A stretch of 64,000 nucleotides of DNA from Sthenelais limicola (lineage: Eukaryota > Annelida > Polychaeta > Phyllodocida > Sigalionidae): assembly GCA_942159475.1 (NCBI GenBank), contig OW804100.1:7022127-7086126 (forward strand), written 5' to 3'. Below are positions 19,430 to 59,510 of the stretch, piece by piece. Position 1 is the first letter of the stretch. Each line of letters opens with the position of its first letter. A program made the translations under genes and the position numbers. The notes beneath the pieces were generated by a model. The model was not told the origin of the DNA and did no database searches. It worked only from the letters and a program-made list of their open reading frames with translations.

Positions 19430-20425
19430 CATTTGGTTTATATTAGGCCTATGATGTTTCCCAGGACCTACTTGGGTCATTGGGTGAAAGCCGCAGATAT
19501 TACATCTCTGGTTTATATTATTAATTTTCCCAGGACCTACTTGGGTCATTGGGTGAAAGCCGCAGATATTACATATCTGGTTTATATTATTAATTTTCCC
19601 AGGACCTTCCCAGGACCTCCCCAATGAAATAATGAAACTTGGTGGTTACTAACTTCATAGCCCCCTCTTTTGCCAACTGGCAAGACCGTGAAGTGAGTTT
19701 CCAGAGTTTCAAGGTTGTTTTTATTGTATGAAGGATCAATTTTGCCCATGAGATTTATTTCATGAAACAGAGTATGAGGCCATCTCTGGTTTATATTATT
19801 AATTTTCCCAGGACCTACTCGGGTCATTGGGTGAAAGCCGCAGATATTACATCTCTGGTTTATATTATTAATTTTCCCAGGACCTACTCGGGTCATTGGG
19901 TGAAGGCCACAGATATTACATAATTATCTGGTTTATATTATTAATTTTCCCAGGACCTACTCGGGTCATTGGGTGAAAGCCGCAGATATTACATCTCTGG
20001 TTTATATTATTAATTTTCCCAGGACCTACTCGGGTCATTGGGTGAAAGCTGCAGATATTACATCTCTGGTTTATATTATTAATTTTCCCAGGACCTACTC
20101 GGGTCATTGGGTGAAGGCCACAGATATTACATAATTATCTGGTTTATATTATTAATTTTCCCAGGACCTACTCGGGTCATTGGGTGAAAGCCGCAGATAT
20201 TACATCTCTGGTTTATATTATTAATTTTCCCAGGACCTACTCGGGTCATTGGGTGAAAGCTGCAGATATTACATCTCTGGTTTATATTATTAATTTTCCC
20301 AGGACCTACTCGGGTCATTGGGTGAAGGCCACAGATATTACATATCTGGTTTATATTATTAATTTTCCCAGGACCTTCTCGGGTCATATTATTAATTTTC
20401 CCAGGACCTTCTCGGACATGGGCTG
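19430..20425 (+). repeat. 69-bp minisatellite array
   Basis: Unit of 69 bp: tttatattattaattttccc then aggacctactcgggtcattg then ggtgaaagccgcagatattacatctctgg. About eleven copies, some with a 5-bp variant (ataattatctgg). Since 69 = 3 x 23, it makes an open minus-strand frame repeating TRVGPGKINNINQRCNIC. I regard that as a by-product. The array is interrupted at 19617-19784 by unrelated sequence. Confidence 0.95.
19617..19784 (+). repeat. 168-bp segment duplicated 1.3 kb away
   Basis: ccccaatgaaataatgaaac through tttcatgaaacagagtatga recurs nearly identically at 20919-21086. The left copy sits inside the 69-bp satellite, so the satellite probably expanded or moved around a duplicated segment. 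Confidence 0.9.
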
Positions 20426-25424: not shown

Positions 25425-26815
25425 ATTTTACTATTGAGGAACAGCCCGTCTCAACCATTCGTCCCCATAGAGGGAGAGCACCTTGAGACAACAGCTACAA
25501 TTCCACTTATTGCCCATACATAGGCCTACACTAGTTTTTACTGTTGCGGAACAGCCCGTCTCAACCCTTCGTCCCCATAGAGGGAGAGCACCCTGAGACG
25601 ACAGCTTCAATTATTAATGATAACTATGGCAATGAGAAACATTTCAAGGAAACAAGGAAGAGAAAAGATGGATATCCAGACTAAACACGATGGTACCACA
25701 CGGATTAAACATATTGGATTGATCATCCAAAACCTTAGACATTTTCAAACCAACTGGTCTAAAATAATATACATATATATACTGTATTATTAAGGAACAC
25801 CTCGTCTCAACCCTTCGTCCCTATATAGAGAGACAAAACCTTGAGACCACCATTCATTTCCCATACATAATCTTGTTTATTTGTGTGATTTCATCTAGAT
25901 TTTACTATTGAGAAACACCTCGTCTCAACCCTTCGTCCCTATATAGATACAAAACCTTGAGACCACCATTCATTTCCCATACATAATCTTGTTTATTTGT
26001 GTGGTTTCATCTAGATTTTACTATTGAGAAACACCTCGTCTCAACCCTTCGTCCCTATATAGAGAGACAAAACCTTGAGACCACCATTCATTTCCCATAC
26101 ATAATCTTGTTTATTTGTGTGGTTTCATCTAGATTTTACTATTGAGAAACACCTCGTCTCAACCCTTCGTCCCTATATAGAGAGACAAAACCTTGAGGCC
26201 ACCATTCATTTCCCATACATAATCTTGTTTATTTGTGTGGTTTCATCTAGATTTTACTATTGAGAAACACCTCGTCTCAACCCTTCGTCCCTATATAGAG
26301 AGACAAAACCTTGAGGCCACCATTCATTTCCCATACATAATCTTGATTATTTGTGTGATTTCATCTAGATTTTACTATTGAGAAACACCTCGTCTCAACC
26401 CTTCGTCCCTATATAGAGAGACAAAACCTTGAGACCACCATTCATTTCCCATACATAATCTTGTTTATTTGTGTGATTTCATCTAGATTTTACTATTGAG
26501 AAACACCTCGTCTCAACCCTTCGTCCCTATATAGAGAGACAAAACCTTGAGGCCACCAATCATTTCCCATACATAATCTTGTTTATTTGTGTGATTTCAT
26601 CTAGATTTTACTATTGAGAAACACCTCGTCTCAACCCTTCGTCCCTATATAGAGAGATAAAACCTTGAGACCACCATTCATTTCCCATACATAATCTTGT
26701 TTATTTGTGTGATTTCATCTAGATTTTACTATTGAGAAACACCTCGTCTCAACCCTTCGTCCCTATATAGAGAGACAAAACCTTGAGACGACCATTCATT
26801 TTCCATACATATTCT
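25425..26815 (+). repeat. 118-bp satellite array with internal inverted repeat
   Basis: Eight near-identical 118-bp copies span 25891-26815 (attttactattgagaaacac, ctcgtctcaacccttcgtcc, ctatatagagagacaaaacc, ttgagaccaccattcatttc). Divergent founder-like copies precede them at 25425, 25535 and 25785. Each unit contains GTCTCAA...TTGAGAC around a CTATATAG core, able to fold as a hairpin. Some copies carry ttgaggc, which breaks one pair. Confidence 0.95.
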
Positions 26816-27867
26816 TGTTCAGTTAGAATAGAATAGAAAGTCTTTTATTTGCCAATAATTAGTTACAAAGAAAGTGACAAATGGGTTGACATGCCTATGT
26901 GTCAAAGTTCATCAACACATTTCTTCCTGCTGTTACCCTATTTGGAATATGTTATGATTTAAGTATAAGGATAATTAATATCTAACGATAAATATTTGAC
27001 GGAAAACAAACTCGCATGGAATACTTTCTTTCATACATTGGTATCATAAAATAGTTCCGTTCCGTTTTCATGCTAGTGAATTCCATTCCAGAAACTTTTA
27101 CTTTAACCAAAAACAAATCCGTCTCAGAAAGATTCCGAGTGACGGATATAAGGGGTATGCCGGGCGGGCAGCGCTTTGGCGGGAAATCATGGCGTCCATT
27201 GCCCAAATATAATTTCTATAAATCATTTCACCAACAGATTCGTTTTAAGCCCATATTCTCATGCGAAACCTCTATATAGATCTAGAATAGCAATGAGTAT
27301 TGTAAACCTATTCAGAAAACAATTACACTGTCTTGTATATATTCATAAAACTACGCCATAACCGTTATACATAGCCTATCTTTATATATATATCATAGCT
27401 ATACCATGATTAGTTTTCACTCATAAATACCATGATCAATTTTCACTCATAAATACGACGATCAATTTTCACTCACTCATATTCATTCTTCGGTACCACA
27501 ATTACTCAGATATACCATATTATTTCGCAGCCAAATTGATCAGAATTTCATAGATGTGTAGAGCTGCCGATTGTACATTTCTAAGCGATCTGACCCATGA
27601 TATTGAATCAAATGAGCGTATGTCTAAACTGGGTGCAAATGAAATAATTTAAACAATATATATTGCTACCTATATACACGTGCATGTGGGCCCGGAAAGA
27701 CAGATCACTATGAATAAATAGCTGGTGCATGGCCACAAGACTCCTATAACCTTGCCTTACTCACTCACACAGGATGGCATTCAAGTAACACACAACATGA
27801 CAATCGCTCATACATATAATACCAAATGTCCAAGTAATTCTGTGGACCACCAGCTGAAATAAAAGAT

Positions 27868-34340: not shown

Positions 34341-35326
34341 CCAAATGATACACACGAGTTGTGTAGAATGGTCATGGCTGTTGGTAATTGGCTAGTACAA
34401 TTCTACAAGTTACTCTGTCACTAGATTTGCATAGTATTGCGATTAATTACTTTAATTAGGAATAATGATTAGTGTTAATGATAATTTGGAATATAATTGT
34501 TACGCAATCTGTGTGTATACTATTGCGTAATACCTGATATAACCCATGCTCCCTTATATACCACCACACATCTCACCTTAACCCACCCATGCACCTCCCG
34601 ATCATCACATACCCCTGTTTGTCCTCCGTGACCACTCCACATCTCGGCACATCTCATCTATATACTATATACTACTTCACTGGCCAACGTCCAAACTAAA
34701 CTGGGAGGTCTGTTGACTTTCTAGACGAGTGCAGCGACCAGATTTCAAAACACAAGTTATGTAACATTACGTTACATTGCTCAATCTAATGATATTTATA
34801 TTAATTATCACCCATTTATCAGTTGTTATCATATTTCCATAATTGCTAATACAATAGCATTGTTCTATGCAGGTCTACTGATCGGGATCTGTCTCTCAGA
34901 TCTACAGGTGTTCCCCTCTACTTTTAATAGCGAGATACAACGCATCTACCAACGCTACAACGCATCTACCAACGCTAACCGAAACCTATATCACCCTGCG
35001 TTAGGTTCAGACCCTAAGATACCCTACATATATAGCGGTAGCTAGCGGCAGTCTAGGTACACAGGCCATCGGTTAACAGATAGCACTAGTGAACTCGCCG
35101 TTTTAGCATTGTAAAACCTTATTTGAATAAGAATTTGATACTCAGATACTTAGAAAACAGGTTTAACTTTAACATGGAACCATTATTTGCGGGATGAATC
35201 TGACAGATTTGCTTAGAAGAAGATAGGGAATCCAACCGTATCGACGGCCCTTCTTACGTTAATCCCGCAGGGTTGGTGTTCATTACCTATGCATAACGTG
35301 ACATAGTGACCTCTTTAGATATGTTT

Positions 35327-35840
35327 AGGTTAGTGGTGCACTGGATACGTTGCTTGAATTAGGTTAGCGGTGCACTGGATACGTTGCTTGAATTAGGTTA
35401 GCGGTGCACTGGATACGTTGCTTGAATTAGGTTAGCGGTGCACTGGATACGTTGCTTGAATTAGGTTAGCGGTGCACTGGATACGTTGCTTGAATTAGGT
35501 TAGCGGTGCACTGGATACGTTGCTTGAATTAGGTTAGCGGTGCACTGGATACGTTGCTTGAATTAGGTTAGCGGTGCACTGGATACGTTGCTTGAATTAG
35601 GTTAGCGGTGCACTGGATACGTTGCTTGAATTAGGTTAGCGGTGCACTGGATACGTTGCTTGAATTAGGTTAGCGGTGCACTGGATACGTTGCTTGAATT
35701 AGGTTAGCGGTGCACTGGATACGTTGCTTGAATTAGGTTAGCGGTGCACTGGATACGTTGCTTGAATTAGGTTAGCGGTGCACTGGATACGTTGCTTGCA
35801 TTAGGTTAGCGGTGCACTGGATATGTTGCTTGCATTATCT
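35327..35840 (+). repeat. 34-bp satellite array, ~15 copies
   Basis: Unit gcggtgcactggatacgttg + cttgaattaggtta. Internal copies are identical; the two rightmost have cttgcatta, and the last has ggatatg. Near-perfect homogeneity suggests recent expansion. Confidence 0.97.
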
Positions 35841-51414: not shown

Positions 51415-51552
51415 GGAATAGGGGGAGAGAGGACAGAAAGAGAGAGGGAGCGGTGGGACAAGGAGAGAGACGGGCTGGGCAGGGGAAGGGACGAGGAGAG
51501 AGAGGACGGGGAAGGGAAAGGGACGAGGAGAGAGAGGGGCGGGGAAGGGAAA
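51415..51552 (+). repeat. Purine minisatellite, left part
   Basis: gagagagaggggcggggaag gga units (about 35 bp). Continues at 58861-59500 in the same orientation, so both parts look like one array split by the 51553-58860 element. Confidence 0.8.
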
Positions 51553-52155
51553 TAGTCCAGGCAATCTAGCTCAAAAAACCCAAAATGTCAAAAAAACTAG
51601 AACAGAAATGCGTTTTTCACCATGCATTACCTTAAGGTCCCTAGATTAACATACTAAAAATGTAGAAAAATCGTTCGTTGGGAAATAGGGGAAAATAGCC
51701 ATTTTCCAAAATGGCTGCCATGGGCTAAGTGCTAAACCCAAAACCAATGTAACTTTTGATGGAAACACAGCAAATCAATGAAATTGGTGTCTAGGATAGG
51801 GTTTTCAGGTATTGCCAACACAATGGTGACATTTAAAATCATGTAAGACTTGGCCTACTAACCTAAATCCAAGATGGCTCCTACCAAATAATCTTGAAGT
51901 TTTGGGAAAGTTCATAACTTTTGATAGAAAAATAGTATATGGCCAATTTTGGTGTCTATTATGGGGTTTTCAGGTACACCCAACACAAAGGTGACATTTA
52001 GAATTGTTTTAGACATGGCCTGATAACCCATATTCAAGATGGTCACTCCTGAAACTCAGATAGTTATGTTGCAACAATTCATAAATTCGATAGAACCTTA
52101 ATACAAGTTTTAATTTGGTGTCTATTCAGTACATACCTTCAATGGACTGCTATGT
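51553..52155 (+). repeat. Left inverted arm with YY1-like motifs
   Basis: Tandem modules starting ggtgtctaggatagggtttt (51785) and ggtgtctattatggggtttt (51948). Contains ccaaaatggctgcc, ccaagatggctcc and caagatggtcac, close to the YY1 core AAnATGGC. Mirrored at 55365-55640 and 58462-58860. Confidence 0.8.
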
Positions 52156-52159
52156 ATAG

Positions 52160-52865
52160 ATTTTTTTTTTATTATTATTATTCATTTAAGGCCAATACAA
52201 TATTTAAATAGTTCACATGAAAAAACACACTGTCCACTAATTGAGGCGTTGCATTGTTATTAAAATTAGATTCGAGTAAATCTCACTGTGTACTTCATTT
52301 ACATTAGGAATACAGTCCTCTCTCCCACTATCATTTACTACTAAAAATGGCATAATATGGACTGCCTTATTTCATAACTTTCTTTATTTAACTGGCTTCG
52401 TCCAATTAATGCCATACAAACAAAACTAAAATTACCCATTACCAATCACATGAAATCCACTTATATCATACCAAACAAATGCTAAACTATAAGGCTCTTC
52501 CAGAACCAGTCGATATCTCAACCATACAACTACAATAAGGTAATACATTCATTATACAGTTCAAACAATTTCTGCCCTGTAAATATTGTTTTGCCAAGTC
52601 TTAAGTTTTAGCATAAACATATCCAGATCCAGTCTTAGGTCTAACAGCAATTCATTCCATTTAATCTTCCCTGTATAAAAAACACTTCTTCTCATTCTTT
52701 CAGTTCTTGGTCTAATAATGTGTAGAACAGGACCTATACTCTATTCCTGAGATTTAAAGCTTGCTCTACATGGTCAAAATTTCTTTGTCTTTTGTGTATT
52801 AGTTTTAAACATGCGATTTCAGCTCTCTCCAAAATAGGAAGGAGTCTTGACTTGTCTTGTTGGAA
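52160..52865 (-). mobile_element. 5'-truncated LINE tail
   Basis: Minus strand, 52865 down: an ORF2 C-terminus-like reading (AEIACLKLIHKRQRNF, then RRSVFYTGKIKWNELL and LDLRLDLDMFMLKLKTW), typical of CR1/Jockey-like LINE ends. Then 3' UTR and a terminal (aat)n/poly-A tract seen on plus as ttttttttattattattatt at 52161-52183. Inserted downstream of or into the nuclease-like gene. Confidence 0.6.
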
Positions 52866-55260
52866 TTATGACTGCGTGTATAAATGGCAACTGATTGCAC
52901 AATGGCAAGCCAAGTACAGATGTCAAAATGTGAATGTTCCAGACCCCAACCTTTGTTGATCCAAGCTTGGGCTCTGGCTTCAGAAATATTTTCTTGTTGG
53001 TCCTGTTGCAATGGTAGCATAAGAGAATGAGTATATGTGTGTCATGTGCAACAACAATTGTGTCTTTGTGAGCAGCAGCAGCCACAAAAGTTTCGACAAT
53101 AACAACGTCAGCATCACCTCTGGCATGAATAGTCCCACACCCAGCTTGTACCAAGGTGTCACTCAATAAGTTGATGAATCAGTTTGTTTTATGTGCTTCC
53201 CAGGAAGACATCCTTCTTCACAGTCAGAGGCATGTCTGGCTCAAAGTGTACAGGAATAGTGGTTTTTGACGCTCTTCTCAAGTGAGTCCTGTGCTTTACT
53301 GATGGTCCATCACAGTACCCATCAAACACAGTAATGCATGCACCATACTTGGCTTTCACATAATGAACATAATTGCCACAAAGGCAGTAATGCTTGATGA
53401 CACTTTACTTCATTCCAGAGTGCATCTGCTAAAACTGCCTTGTTTGCTAGCCTAGGGTGCCTGCAGATTCAAAAAGAGCTGTAGGGTAGCTGCAAAGCTC
53501 ATACTTACGCAGGTCCTGTGTGCCTATATGTGATGTGTTTCAGGAAAATGAGTCATAAGTCGCAAAAATAGATTTTGAGGTACCATTACATTTGAAAAGA
53601 TGAGATGAAGCTGATTCCAATGGTAGTAAACAGTGTTATAATGCAATAAGTATTTCTAGATTTTAAGTTTGATATTTTCGTTTTTGAAAAAAAAATTCCA
53701 ATATTTCTGGGGGTCAATAAACAGTAAATTAACTAATTGTAGTCCATATGAGGACCTTTAAAACGAAAGGATATATTATATAGATTGTCCTGAAATTTGC
53801 TACACAGATTGACATAACCATAAGTGACATACTCTCCAAAGATCAGAACATTCCAATAATGTGATCTTGTGAAAAAAACGCTTTGAAAAATATCAATTTT
53901 GCGACTTATGACTCATTTTCCTGAAACACATCACATATTATCTCTGGCAGCAACTAGAGTCAACCTCTGAAAGAGCATCTGTGGGTCAATCTGCACAGCC
54001 TCTTTGTTTATCACCAAGGCTGCTTTTGATCCAAGTGTTGTAGCTTGTTGCTTTCATTTGAATGAATATTCTGCTACAGCTTTTCAATGACCTTCTGTCC
54101 AACAACTCCAGCTTGATTGACATTTACTTTTGGTGAAGCCACTACACCTGAGACAATATTATGTAATGTTCCATCAGTCTTTCTGAAGGGGTTTCTTCTT
54201 TCCAGAAAGTTGACTAGCTTTCAGTGTCTTGACAATCACACTTTTGTTGAGTATTTGAAGCTTCTAGTTGCTCACTGGTGTGATATGCGATGCCAGTGAA
54301 TCCCTGCATAGCTTGATTCATGTCAGAACAAGCAGGAATAGAATTGATCCAGGTCACTCTTTGCAACTCTGACATACCCCGCCCTCTAGTCAGACCACCA
54401 GTAGTTTTGATTCTGCGCATCAATACCTGTTCAATTATGAGATTAGTGGAAAGACCGCCCCAAAATCTGTCACTACGGCAAACAACATGTAGGCCATCCA
54501 AGAACATAGCATAGATATCAGGGTGATCTTTTCAAGTCTGGCTATGTTCTGTAAATAGACATATAAGGTTTTGGTATATAAGTTGTGCCCTGCAGCAGCA
54601 AGATATGGAAGCATTTCTTGCAATGATGCAAGGTGGAGTTTCCAATTACCTGTTCTTTCTGCTCTCAGAAAACACTTCAGGTTATTGACCATCTTCATAT
54701 ACTGCAGCCAGAGACAAGCAGTACAACTTTCTTCATTTTTCTCCTTTTCTCCTTCTAATATATCATTGATTTTCTTTAATGTGACTCTTCTTCATCATGT
54801 GAGTCTTCCTCATCTATAATTGTTCCTGAGAGCAACTTATGGAATATTTCCTTTGTATTTGCTATAAGATTTTCCCAATTATTTGTATCACCAAGATAGT
54901 TGTCTTCAGAACTATCGCTTGGTTCAGAAGGGCACTCTATTGGCCCATCTGCTTCAAAAGAAGGTTCAGTCTGTTGCCTCTCTGTTGATCCATCAATTTG
55001 TTCAGCTTGAGAAATGTTTGGCAATGGAAGGTTGAATGCATCTCTGAGCAGTAGCATATTTAAGGCTGCATCCACAAGAAAATGGCCTAGAGCTACGAGC
55101 TCTGGCCATTGCTTTGCCACTGAGCATGTGTCCTACTGCATTGCTGCCATAGACCATTTCAAGGCCCTCATAGAGACCAGAATTCTCCATGAGGTGACCT
55201 ATACATCCCAAGAAGCTCATTTCTGTGTGCAGTCCACCAATTTGCAATACAACCCATTTT
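52866..55260 (-). pseudogene. FEN/XPG-like (PIN-fold) family gene, broken, probably element-encoded
   Basis: Read from 55260 down in several frames: IGGLHTEMSFLGCIGHLMEN (about 55240), an acidic linker, LRAERTGNWKLHLASLQEML (54670s), RSDRFWGGLSTNLIIEQVLM (54480s), TTGGLTRGRGMSELQRVTW, then after the 407-bp MITE ITVFDGYCDGPSVKHRTHLR (53310s), GDADVVIVETFV (53110s) and IVVAHDTHILILLCYH (53040s). FDG..P..K, GDADV and D-T-x-L are in the order of the acidic motifs of FEN1/XPG nucleases (FDGxxPxxK, EAEA, DxD). The usual second Asp of D-T-D is His here. I recall similar multi-copy predicted proteins in many aquatic invertebrates without an assigned function. Frame changes and stops show this copy is dead. 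Confidence 0.65.
53529..53935. mobile_element. 407-bp MITE with TA duplication, inside the nuclease-like gene
   Basis: TIRs of about 40 bp: tgtgatgtgtttcaggaaaa tgagtcataagtcgcaaaa at the left, its inverse at the right, flanked by TA (53527-53528 and 53936-53937). Same family as sequence at 43265, 44270, 45726 and 48090. Interior shares aRggatatattNNNtaNaNtgtc with 22910 and 56420. Confidence 0.85.
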
Positions 55261-55364
55261 AGTTTGCTATTATGAGGCTCATTGGTAATGATCGTATGAG
55301 CCTTCCACCATAATGGTTGACCATTACTGAAGCAGTTTCAGTTCACTCTCAGTTTCACTCTCAG

Positions 55365-55640
55365 CGTCCCTCCAAGTTTTATGACTTAGAGGTGACTATC
55401 TTGGAATCAGGTTATTAGAATGTTTTACATCATTTTAAATGTCACCACTGTGTTTAGCTTACCTGAAAACCCCATGTTAGAGACCGAAATAGGCCCAATA
55501 TTATGTTTCTATCTTTTATTTTGAGCTTTGCCAAAATTATTGAATTTTTGTTGGCGGCCATCTTGGATATGGGCTATTAGGCAAGATCTAGCATGGTTTC
55601 AAGTGTCACCACTGAGTTGGGCATACCTGAAAACCCCATA
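55365..55640 (-). repeat. Right inverted arm, inner part
   Basis: Inverse modules: gtgactatcttggaatcagg, tttaaatgtcaccactgtgt, acctgaaaaccccat, and ggcggccatcttggatatgg. Interrupted at TA (55639-55640) by the 2.8-kb element and resumed at 58462. Confidence 0.8.
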
Positions 55641-58461
55641 CCCGTTGGGCATGATGTGCAATGGTGTGTGCAATATATCAGCAATATAACAGCAATAGAC
55701 TGCAATGCAAAATCTGTTGCACATGTATTGCGGATCCATTGCAGACATGAGAAAAAATGACTGCAAAATTATTTGCAAAATCTTTTGCACTTTTTTGTAC
55801 TTGTTTTATTTTTGGAGAAAATAAGGACTGAAATAACAATATATGATTCATACTCTTAAGTTCCTTTTGGTCGATATAAAAATCAATATCCGGCCTGCTT
55901 GTATCAATGCCTGAGACACAATACTGCAAAATATCTGTATATTTTGAGAGCAAGTTTTGCGCAATGATCTTTGCTGATTCATTGCACTATAATAGACAGA
56001 ATCACATCAACCTGAGAAGTAAATTACTGCAAAATAATTTGCGAATCTTTTGCACCTTTTAACACACTGTTCTGTTTTCTTCTGAAGGGAAAATAACTGC
56101 AAAATATCTGCATAATTTGAGCGCATCTTTTGCGTTTTGATCTTTGCTGTTTTATTGCCTTATATATCATAGGGGGAAAAATTGCACCACAAGGAAAAGT
56201 AGCATATTTCTAATATTGTGACTAGAATTGATTCATACTTATTAGACTGAGAGAAGTTTAACATTAACAGTTACATAACTGGAAAACACTGCACTACGGC
56301 CGCAGGATGTGGGTCGGGGGGGGGGGAGGCTTAATTCTGTAAGTGATATAGCAGCTACGGGCGGAAAAGTGACTGAAGGTTCCTACAAGCTTAGAAATAT
56401 CCCTAGAAATAGGAGGCTTACAATAACCTTCAAAACGCAATGATATATTCAAGGCAATGTCTTGAGATTTGGTATACATATTCATATGACTAGAAGCAAC
56501 AAGCCTTCCAAAAATGGGCACATTCCAAGAAAGAGATCGTGTGAATAAATTACTTAGAAATTAAAAAAAATGTGCAGGGACAGAGTTGGGTGATTTACAT
56601 CGATTCGAACGACTTAATGCGGCCAACGAATATAATTCATTAAGGAGGAACTAACTATCCGATTATAAATCTGAAAGCAGGGCTGTCTTTCTGACAGTCC
56701 AGGGATTCTTGGGCAATTAATTTTTATATATTCAGATTGAAAGCTTTTTGAGGGAGATATGAGCTATCTAGTGGAAAGCAATGCTTTTTAGTTTTCACAA
56801 GTGGTCATGATTGCGGCGATCATGCGCCATCGTCGATGACGCACTTAATATTAAGGTTATATGGGTTGCATAGCCACATTCGCCTCAGCCTACGCTTCCT
56901 TTTGATGGTAAACACTTCACATTCAGACAAATCTGAAGAGAGTAGTTAGTACTTTAATTCAGACAGTTTTAATGGAACGGCAGATTATTTTGCCTAAATA
57001 CACAAAATATTTTAGAATCTATTTTTTAAAAGTTCTGATGTACATGTTGTTTACCAGACACTGCCATTTCGTGCATCAATGCTAGAATGAAATGTGTGTT
57101 CATTTCCACACCTTCATGCGTTGTTCTAGCTACCAAAACTAAGACTAGATTCTCACTCGGCCGTTTTTCTCACTGTAAGGGATTTAAACATCTGTCATAA
57201 GATACCATCAGTTACCAACCTGGGAAAGTCCCCACTAATCCTTTTATAAGCCCCTGAACAAACAACCCATGCAGGGTATAGGGCGGAAATACCGCAACAG
57301 CCATCCACTATATACAAGGCCTGGAAACAAAGGATTCATGGTTTTTGGCGGGAATTATTGGCGTGGATACATCAGCATTACTAGGACATTCACCCTCACC
57401 CTCACTCCAGCCTAAGACTTCAACAAGACTGCACATGTATACTCCCATAGCAGGACGACATGACTTAGGAGGATGAGACTGCAGAGACTAGTGGAGGAAG
57501 ACAACCCCAGAGATGACCATACATGTCATTTATGCAGAATTTGAGTATTTATACCTTGATATTTAAAAAGCTTGTACAGTATAGAAAAAGTAAACTCGAC
57601 TTATCATTCAGAGAGTTTAAAGAGGATTTTAATTAATTTACATCTTTAATGCATTTCCAGTTATTACAGATACTGAGACGGATGTTTTAATAACCAATGA
57701 GCCTGCTCCTTCCTACATCAAGTAAGCCCAGAGTTATCACTCCTTACATCCCTCCAGCTGGATGCAGGCCAATTAAGAAACAGTCGAATATACCAAGACT
57801 TCAGTATGTATTTCTTAATAAGTAATCAGATGATATTTAGCATAACCTATTCATAAGTTAACGTACATCATATTATATATTTGTCTCTTACGACTATAAC
57901 TAAGTAGAAATGGTTCTGGTATTTGCATTGTCATTTTATCCTTTGTCACTCTTATTTAAAAAAGAACAAAGTAAATCCTTAGAAGATAAAAAATGTCACC
58001 AACTGGGGATGTGTATTAAATGTTGTATTTTCTTATTTCAGGTACCGCTATAGATGCTTATAATATGTGCTTGGATCTTGTGTGACCCAAGAAAAAAGAG
58101 AAACTGATGAAATAATGAAAATAAAAGATACTCAATGAAGATGAATCAATAAATAATGTATCAATATATTACCCCATGCCCAACCAGATAATATACGCAA
58201 TTAATAGGCGCAAGAAAAGCGCATATATATGCCATCGAATTGCGCTCAAAATTCGCAATAATTATGCATTATATATGCGCATATTTAAATCAAATAAATA
58301 CACAATAATTGCGCATTATATATGCAAAAAGTATACGCAATTTATGCGTTTTTTAACGCAATTAAAATTGCGCAAAAAATGTAAACTCTCATCTCAGAAG
58401 TATTGCGCATTCAGTTGCACCCGTTTTTTTGCGCATATATTGCGCACAAATGCCCATCGGG
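55641..58461. mobile_element. 2.82-kb TIR element inserted at TA in the right arm
   Basis: Left end cccgttgggcatgatgtgca and the inverse of the right end, cccgatgggcatttgtgcgc, are flanked by TA on both sides. Removing it leaves an arm module of normal length (ccccat..tagacacc). Both end regions are packed with small palindromic tgcaaaat/ttttgca and gcgcaatt/aattgcgc units. An internal end-like taccccatgcccaac at 58164 suggests a nested or rearranged copy. The middle (56200-58150) shows no gene. Confidence 0.75.
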
Positions 58462-58860
58462 TAATAGACACCAGAATTGACTGTATGCCATGTTTCTATC
58501 AATTTTGGGGGGATTTTTCATAAATTATTAGATTTTCAATGGTGGCCATCTTGGATATGGGTAATAAGCAATGTTTAACATGATTTTAAATGTTACCACT
58601 GTGCTGGGCATCCCTGAAAACCCCATCTTAGACACCAAATTCATCTTTTTACTACGGTTCTATGAAAAGTTACATTGACTTCTAGATAGGCACTGACCCC
58701 AAGGCAGCCATTTTGGAAAATGGTCATTTAAACCCATTTCCCAACGAACGATTTTTCTACATTTTAAGTATGTTCATCTAGGGACCTTATGGAAAGGCAT
58801 GGTGAAAACCGCATTTCTGTTCTAGTTTTTTTGACATTTTTCATAAATTGACTGGACTAA
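58462..58860 (-). repeat. Right inverted arm, outer part
   Basis: Inverse of the left arm start: ccattttggaaaatggtcat, ccaacgaacgatttttctac, ctagtttttttgacattttt, ending gactggacta. Contains ccatcttggatatggg and gcagccattttgg (inverse YY1-like). Confidence 0.8.
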
Positions 58861-59510
58861 AAGGGACAAGGAGAGAGAGGACGGGGCAGGGAAAGGGATG
58901 ACGAGAGAGGAGCAGGGCGGAGGAAGGGATTAGGAGAGAGAGGGGGTGGGGCAGGGTAAGGAACAAGGTGAGAGGGGCGGGGCGGGAAATGGATGACGAG
59001 AGAGAGGGGAAGGGGAAAGGATTAGGAGAGAGAGGGGGCGGGGCAGGGGAAGGGACGAGGAGAGAGAGGGGCGGGGCAGGGAAAAGGACAAGGAGAGAGA
59101 GGGGCGGGGGAAAGGATTAGGAGAGGGACAAGGAGAGAGAGGGGCGGGAAAAGGGACAAAGAGAGAGAGGGCCGGGTAAATGGACGAGGAGAGAGGGGTG
59201 GGGCGGGGGAAGGAACAAGGAGAGACAGGGGCGGGTGGGGAAAAGGACACGGAGAGGGAGGGCGGAGCAGGGAAAGGGACGAGGGGAGAGAGGGGCGGGG
59301 GAAGGGATGAGGAGAGGGGGGGGGGGCGGGGAAGGGGAAGGGATAAGGAGAGAGAGGGGCGGGGCAGGGGAAGGGATAAGGAGAGAAATGAGAGGGTAGG
59401 AGAGAGAGACAGGGGGCAGGGGGAGGAACGAGGAGAGAGGCAGGGCAGTGTGGGGAGGGAAAGAGGAGAGAGGGCGGTGCGGAGGAAGGGAACAAGGTAA
59501 TAGAGGGACA
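58861..59510 (+). repeat. Purine minisatellite, right part
   Basis: About 18 units of gagagagaggggcggggcag ggaaagggacgag with variation. Long Ser/Pro or Arg/Gly/Glu frames on either strand are low-complexity artefacts. Confidence 0.9.

Follow-up and report, generated by a model that had tools for sequence, protein, structure and literature searches.

A degenerate transposon copy in the polychaete Sthenelais limicola, best filed under AcademX, and an intact sibling with a predicted transposase joined to a FEN1/XPG-type nuclease

Whether a transposon can be moved by a flap-type nuclease and nothing else is the question raised by an element at positions 51553-58859 of a 64,000-nucleotide stretch of the Sthenelais limicola genome (hereafter the window; assembly GCA_942159475.1, contig OW804100.1, here termed C7, positions 7022127-7086126). 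A first-pass annotation had recognised two inverted arms around a single gene with motifs of FEN1/XPG-type nucleases, and had proposed an undescribed element in which the nuclease was either the mobility enzyme of a new class or cargo. The reading that we prefer, at a probability of about 0.87, takes the element for an AcademX-type DNA transposon that moves by cut-and-paste, present in the window as a non-autonomous copy with internal deletions. The proposal of a new class went astray because the transposase half of the gene is missing from this copy.

The element measures 7,307 bp, runs from TAGTCCAG to CTGGACTA, and is bounded on both sides by an AAA target site duplication. Its termini are inverted, with TAGTCCAGGCAAT at 51553 and TAGTCCAGTCAAT (as the reverse complement) finishing at 58859, and the sharp ends reported earlier are thus real, although the right one had been placed one base too far out, at 58860. 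The inverted, modular arms of ∼0.6 kb are likewise real: their longest ungapped block pairs 51582-51863 with 58559-58840 (282 nt, 83% identity), and within them tandem modules of ∼165 bp recur as repeat families D3, D5, and D7 at spacings of 164-166. The right arm, however, is interrupted by a nested sequence. A 33-bp purine minisatellite, oriented alike left and right, flanks the element. Once the element and one AAA are taken out, the two flanks form an unbroken 33-bp array of 19.4 copies (Tandem Repeats Finder), and 65 of the 66 bases of the rejoined junction match array units with up to 91% identity; insertion into such an array had been correctly recognised.

The gene between the arms is FEN1/XPG-like, as was read from the raw letters, but it is a broken relic. 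Against P0036, the intact protein of a sibling element described below, it aligns over residues 621-1336 in eight pieces with frameshifts, stops, and an insert resembling a miniature inverted-repeat transposable element (MITE), and deletions at both ends have removed the N-terminal 620 and last 190 residues; the stretch around D1145 is also missing. The parts bearing D460, D463, and D620 are gone, and D1280 is H. The FDG, GDADV, and D-T motifs do point to a FEN1/XPG-like protein, but FDG lies in a different reading frame from the other two, and the D-T motif reads H-D-T-H-I-L as compared to D-D-T-D-I-L in the intact sibling. Five open reading frame (ORF) pieces of the window gave only weak, irrelevant matches in Pfam (NB-LRR, E 0.0079; Tetraspanin, E 0.11). 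No DDE domain is visible in the window because this copy has lost it, and the window element is, in itself, an ordinary one: a dead, nested, internally deleted transposon copy.

The searched genome comprises 1.13 Gb in 161 contigs. A 248-bp left-arm query gave at least 40 genomic matches (40 scored of 410 candidates), and twenty copies, named L009-L028, were fetched for comparison. Eighteen of them have two recognisable ends and, with the window, make up the 19 copies in which duplications were counted; L011, whose right end is unclear, and L019, with no right end in its stretch, were left out. A perfect 3-bp target site duplication was present in 16 of the 19 and a longer one in none, while flanks paired across different copies matched in 19 of 342 cases. 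The duplicated triplets vary (CAT and ATT three times each, TTA and CAA twice each, six others once each), and there is thus no strict target. Multicopy, with inverted arms and 3-bp duplications, the element is a transposon, as first supposed.

One copy, L014 (3243-9515 of its fetched stretch), is a complete sibling element of 6,273 bp with GAG duplications, and its one open frame encodes the 1,526 aa of P0036; in the other nine of ten translated elements, no frame exceeded 398 aa. From the N-terminus, P0036 presents conserved Cys/His residues, a predicted DDE-type RNase H-like part that contains a helical insertion, a nuclease of the FEN1/XPG type, and a Cys-rich C-terminal tail. The predicted fold of the C-terminal part is like that of EXO1, FEN1, and XPG, and a profile search of the PDB aligns D1184, D1254, D1256, D1278, D1280, and D1339 with the EXO1 active-site acids D78, E150, D152, D171, D173, and D225. 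These six are present in 59 of 59 aligned sequences and a seventh, D1145, placed by motif alone, in 58, giving P0036 both the seven active-site acids and the predicted PIN/FEN fold of the FEN1/XPG superfamily. The nuclease match needed the profile, since the sole result of a single-sequence PDB search was a Cys-rich peptide (E 5.2); the profile search additionally listed an irrelevant TetR match (E 0.6), and NCBIfam a single irrelevant one (E 0.15). The nuclease call of the first-pass annotation is thus backed by profile alignment, conserved acids, and predicted fold, including the match of an intact family protein to PIN/FEN folds. Its statement that no DDE signature accompanies the nuclease is not supported, as the middle part of P0036, upstream of the nuclease, resembles a DDE-type transposase in its predicted fold and its conserved acids, residue geometry aside: a second-look structural alignment puts the P element, Hermes, and RAG1 on top, and D460, D463, D620, and E918 are present in all 59 aligned sequences.

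The same protein family is found well beyond these copies. Of 5,304 candidates in a protein search, 415 passed E ≤ 0.001, with Porites, Mytilus, Littorina, Mercenaria, and Patella among the 120 relatives listed, three of which are labelled "5'-3' exonuclease" by a source. When six homologs were compared with Pfam, two matched DUF6589 near the cut-off (26.4 and 27.8 bits vs. 27), three matched it weakly, and one did not match. Within the S. limicola genome, at least 57 matches to the protein were obtained (31 scored of 2,211 candidates), and stop-free full-length frames beside that of L014 lie at C3:21.27 Mb (1,500 aa, 47% identity) and C7:45.05 Mb (1,486 aa, 46%). Inverted repeats of 518 bp enclose the C3 gene; they share the TAGTCCAG end and are flanked by a TCC duplication. 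The same ends recur around a gene at C5:110.03 Mb (79% identity, two stops), where the duplication is TGA. With no inverted repeat seen in the 2 kb on either side of the C7 gene, two of three divergent relatives conserve the terminal signature together with the 3-bp duplication. The conditions that the first-pass annotation had set for a refutation did not overturn a transposon, as other copies have the arms around genes of this family; the C7 gene is the exception. A multicopy, mostly unnamed coral and mollusc protein family would thereby be explained as a transposase that carries its own flap-type nuclease.

Five of the twenty fetched copies (L009, L010, L011, L012, and L020) match the window's gene region end to end at 97.9-99.1% in two blocks, a comparison that excludes the MITE-like insert of the window copy and some neighbouring bases in L010 and L011. 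The same five carry the window copy's end deletions; the deleted subfamily thus kept moving and was presumably mobilised in trans. A second subfamily, 88-90% identical to the left-arm query and making up 26 of the 40 scored rows, is represented by L021-L028 (3.1-5.3 kb), and all eight retain decayed gene pieces, 67-76% identical except for one 65-bp piece at 89%. A 345-aa ORF in L027 resembles, by eye, a reverse transcriptase/RNase H fragment of a non-long terminal repeat retrotransposon.

Because L014 encodes a DDE-like part upstream in the same polypeptide, the nuclease is most likely neither the sole mobility enzyme nor cargo. The impression that a FEN/XPG-like nuclease is the only mobility enzyme of a new element class is easily gained in the window, where just nuclease-like motifs are easy to see and the parts with three of the four candidate catalytic acids are gone, but L014 has the same arms and a predicted DDE-type fold upstream in the same ORF, on which ground we rejected such a class; with all four acids invariant in the alignment and the 3-bp duplications fixed, we give it almost no credence. 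Only slightly more credible is a reading in which an unrelated MITE-like element supplied the arms and the gene inside them is cargo or was captured from the host. The arms do also enclose short copies without a long family ORF (L021-L028), and no arms were found at the divergent C7 gene; against this, arms and gene co-occur in L014 and at the C3 and C5 loci, P0036 contains a predicted transposase-like fold, and every one of the short copies still holds gene pieces.

Improbable, but less so, is a transposon superfamily of the DDE-plus-XPG type that is distinct from Academ and so far unnamed. The comparison with Academ is by description alone, and the uncharacterised DUF6589 is the sole target of the weak Pfam matches, both of which would suit a separate superfamily, but the AcademX nuclease is of the XPG type, which speaks for Academ. 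So does the combination of a nuclease with 3-4 bp duplications, which is that of AcademX as stated in the excerpted text of PMC10045372. A shade more doubtful is the extended form of this idea, in which the flap nuclease of a superfamily apart from Academ is an obligatory second catalytic centre that would process the non-transferred strand or hairpin ends in the transpososome.

Several points weigh against the AcademX reading. The label was given for the domains encoded and the length of the duplication, not from an Academ reference sequence, and three of the 19 copies (L010, L012, and L015) have no 3-bp duplication, although the right end of L012 could be placed only with mismatches. The C7:45.05 Mb gene shows no inverted repeat within 2 kb on each side. 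For the DDE part, plain Foldseek found nothing significant: its top match, at E 0.54, was a transporter, and RAG1 ranked 23rd with E 2.6. Transposases came first solely with the second-look aligner, whose notes caution on middling Z where models are helical. P0036 has no Pfam domain, be it of a DDE transposase or of an HUH or tyrosine recombinase, although no search aimed at the latter two was made. Finally, the excerpted text of a bivalve survey describes Academ as amplified in bivalves and almost confined to them among molluscs (PMC10294476), whereas the named relatives here include gastropods and corals.

The intact element L014 consists of two long modular terminal inverted repeats around a single gene for one 1,526-aa protein. 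If the AcademX reading is correct, the predicted DDE domain of P0036 would bind the modular arms, its catalytic centre would cleave and transfer strands with a 3-bp stagger, and the FEN1/XPG-type nuclease may trim or open branched intermediates, flaps or hairpins, at the element ends. The window's subfamily, having lost residues of both catalytic centres, would have been spread in trans by intact copies. The apparently complete copy L014 makes the role of its nuclease testable.

The window copy has itself received insertions (Table 1). The inner and outer parts of its right arm adjoin directly in most of the close copies L009-L020 (adjacency was not seen in L011, L015, and L019), and in L009 and L010 the arm junction is continuous with a single TA as compared to two in the window, so the intervening sequence was inserted later and duplicated a TA. 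A query with its first 560 bp gave 44 rows (40 scored of 149 candidates), 37 of which start exactly at its first base, and it thus constitutes a multicopy repeat family of its own; it looks like a non-autonomous TA-target element. The longest stop-to-stop frames seen in it are ∼130 aa or less. The MITE-like insert in the gene relic has 42-nt perfect inverted repeats, a count that includes a possible ATAT duplication. Elsewhere in the window, tandem arrays have units of 34 bp (35325-35837, 15 copies, 99% match), 118 bp (25788-26819, 8.8 copies, 97% match), and 69 bp (19781-20387, with a 211-bp higher-order period at 98%).

Table 1. Features of the element and its insertion site, in window coordinates.
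Feature	Position	Strand	Remark
33-bp purine minisatellite, left of insertion	51455..51552	+	
Target site duplication AAA, left copy	51550..51552	no strand	
Left arm, long terminal inverted repeat of ~0.6 kb, ~165-bp modules, begins TAGTCCAG	51553..52160	+	
Arm-to-relic stretch without match to the intact protein; the gene's last 190 codons gone	52161..52866	no strand	relic stops at P0036 residue 1336
Transposase gene relic, P0036 residues 621-1336, eight aligned pieces	52867..55319	-	
MITE-like insert, perfect 42-nt inverted repeats	53526..53938	no strand	absent at the same point in L009
Right arm, inner part	~55380..55640	-	adjoins outer part in 9/12 close copies
Nested 2,821-bp element, ends CCCG(T/A)TGGGCAT	55641..58461	no strand	TA duplication 55639-55640 and 58462-58463
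Right arm, outer part, ends CTGGACTA	58462..58859	-	
Target site duplication AAA, right copy	58860..58862	no strand	
33-bp purine minisatellite, right of insertion	58860..59386	+	

AcademX is reportedly a lineage of the Academ superfamily introduced by Kojima in 2020. Compared by description only, our element resembles it in a DDE-type transposase (for P0036, by predicted fold and conserved acids) joined to a nuclease (encoded by intact P0036, with the window copy itself broken), in the 3-bp duplication, in the terminal inverted repeats, and in an animal host. The excerpted text of PMC10045372 gives duplications of 3 or 4 bp for AcademX and 9 or 10 bp for AcademH, and remarks that these lengths seem tied to the encoded helicase and nuclease, which fits a role for the nuclease in the reaction. 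The 3-bp duplications of the fetched copies and the TCC and TGA of two divergent relatives fall within the AcademX range so stated, and the element is not, in that respect, undescribed. AcademH would belong to the same superfamily if the AcademX assignment is right, but it has a helicase and the longer duplications; we rejected it, as Pfam finds no domain, and thus no helicase, in P0036, and no copy has a duplication longer than 3 bp. Pending sequence comparison with Repbase, AcademX is the best place for the element, as a new family within a known kind and not as a new element class. In the literature searched, where the words Academ, XPG, and transposons together returned 0 papers and most of the papers listed were unopened, Academ was not described as having an XPG domain.

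With the P element, hAT (Hermes), and RAG1/Transib, P0036 appears to share an RNase H-like fold interrupted by a large helical insertion, as judged from its model, but identity to these transposases is low (6-11%). Their duplications measure 8, 8, and 5 bp, respectively, and none of them is known to have an XPG domain. The likeness to FEN1, EXO1, XPG, and GEN1 lies in the predicted fold of P0036 and its seven metal-binding acids; the difference is that here the nuclease is fused to a predicted transposase and travels on a mobile element.
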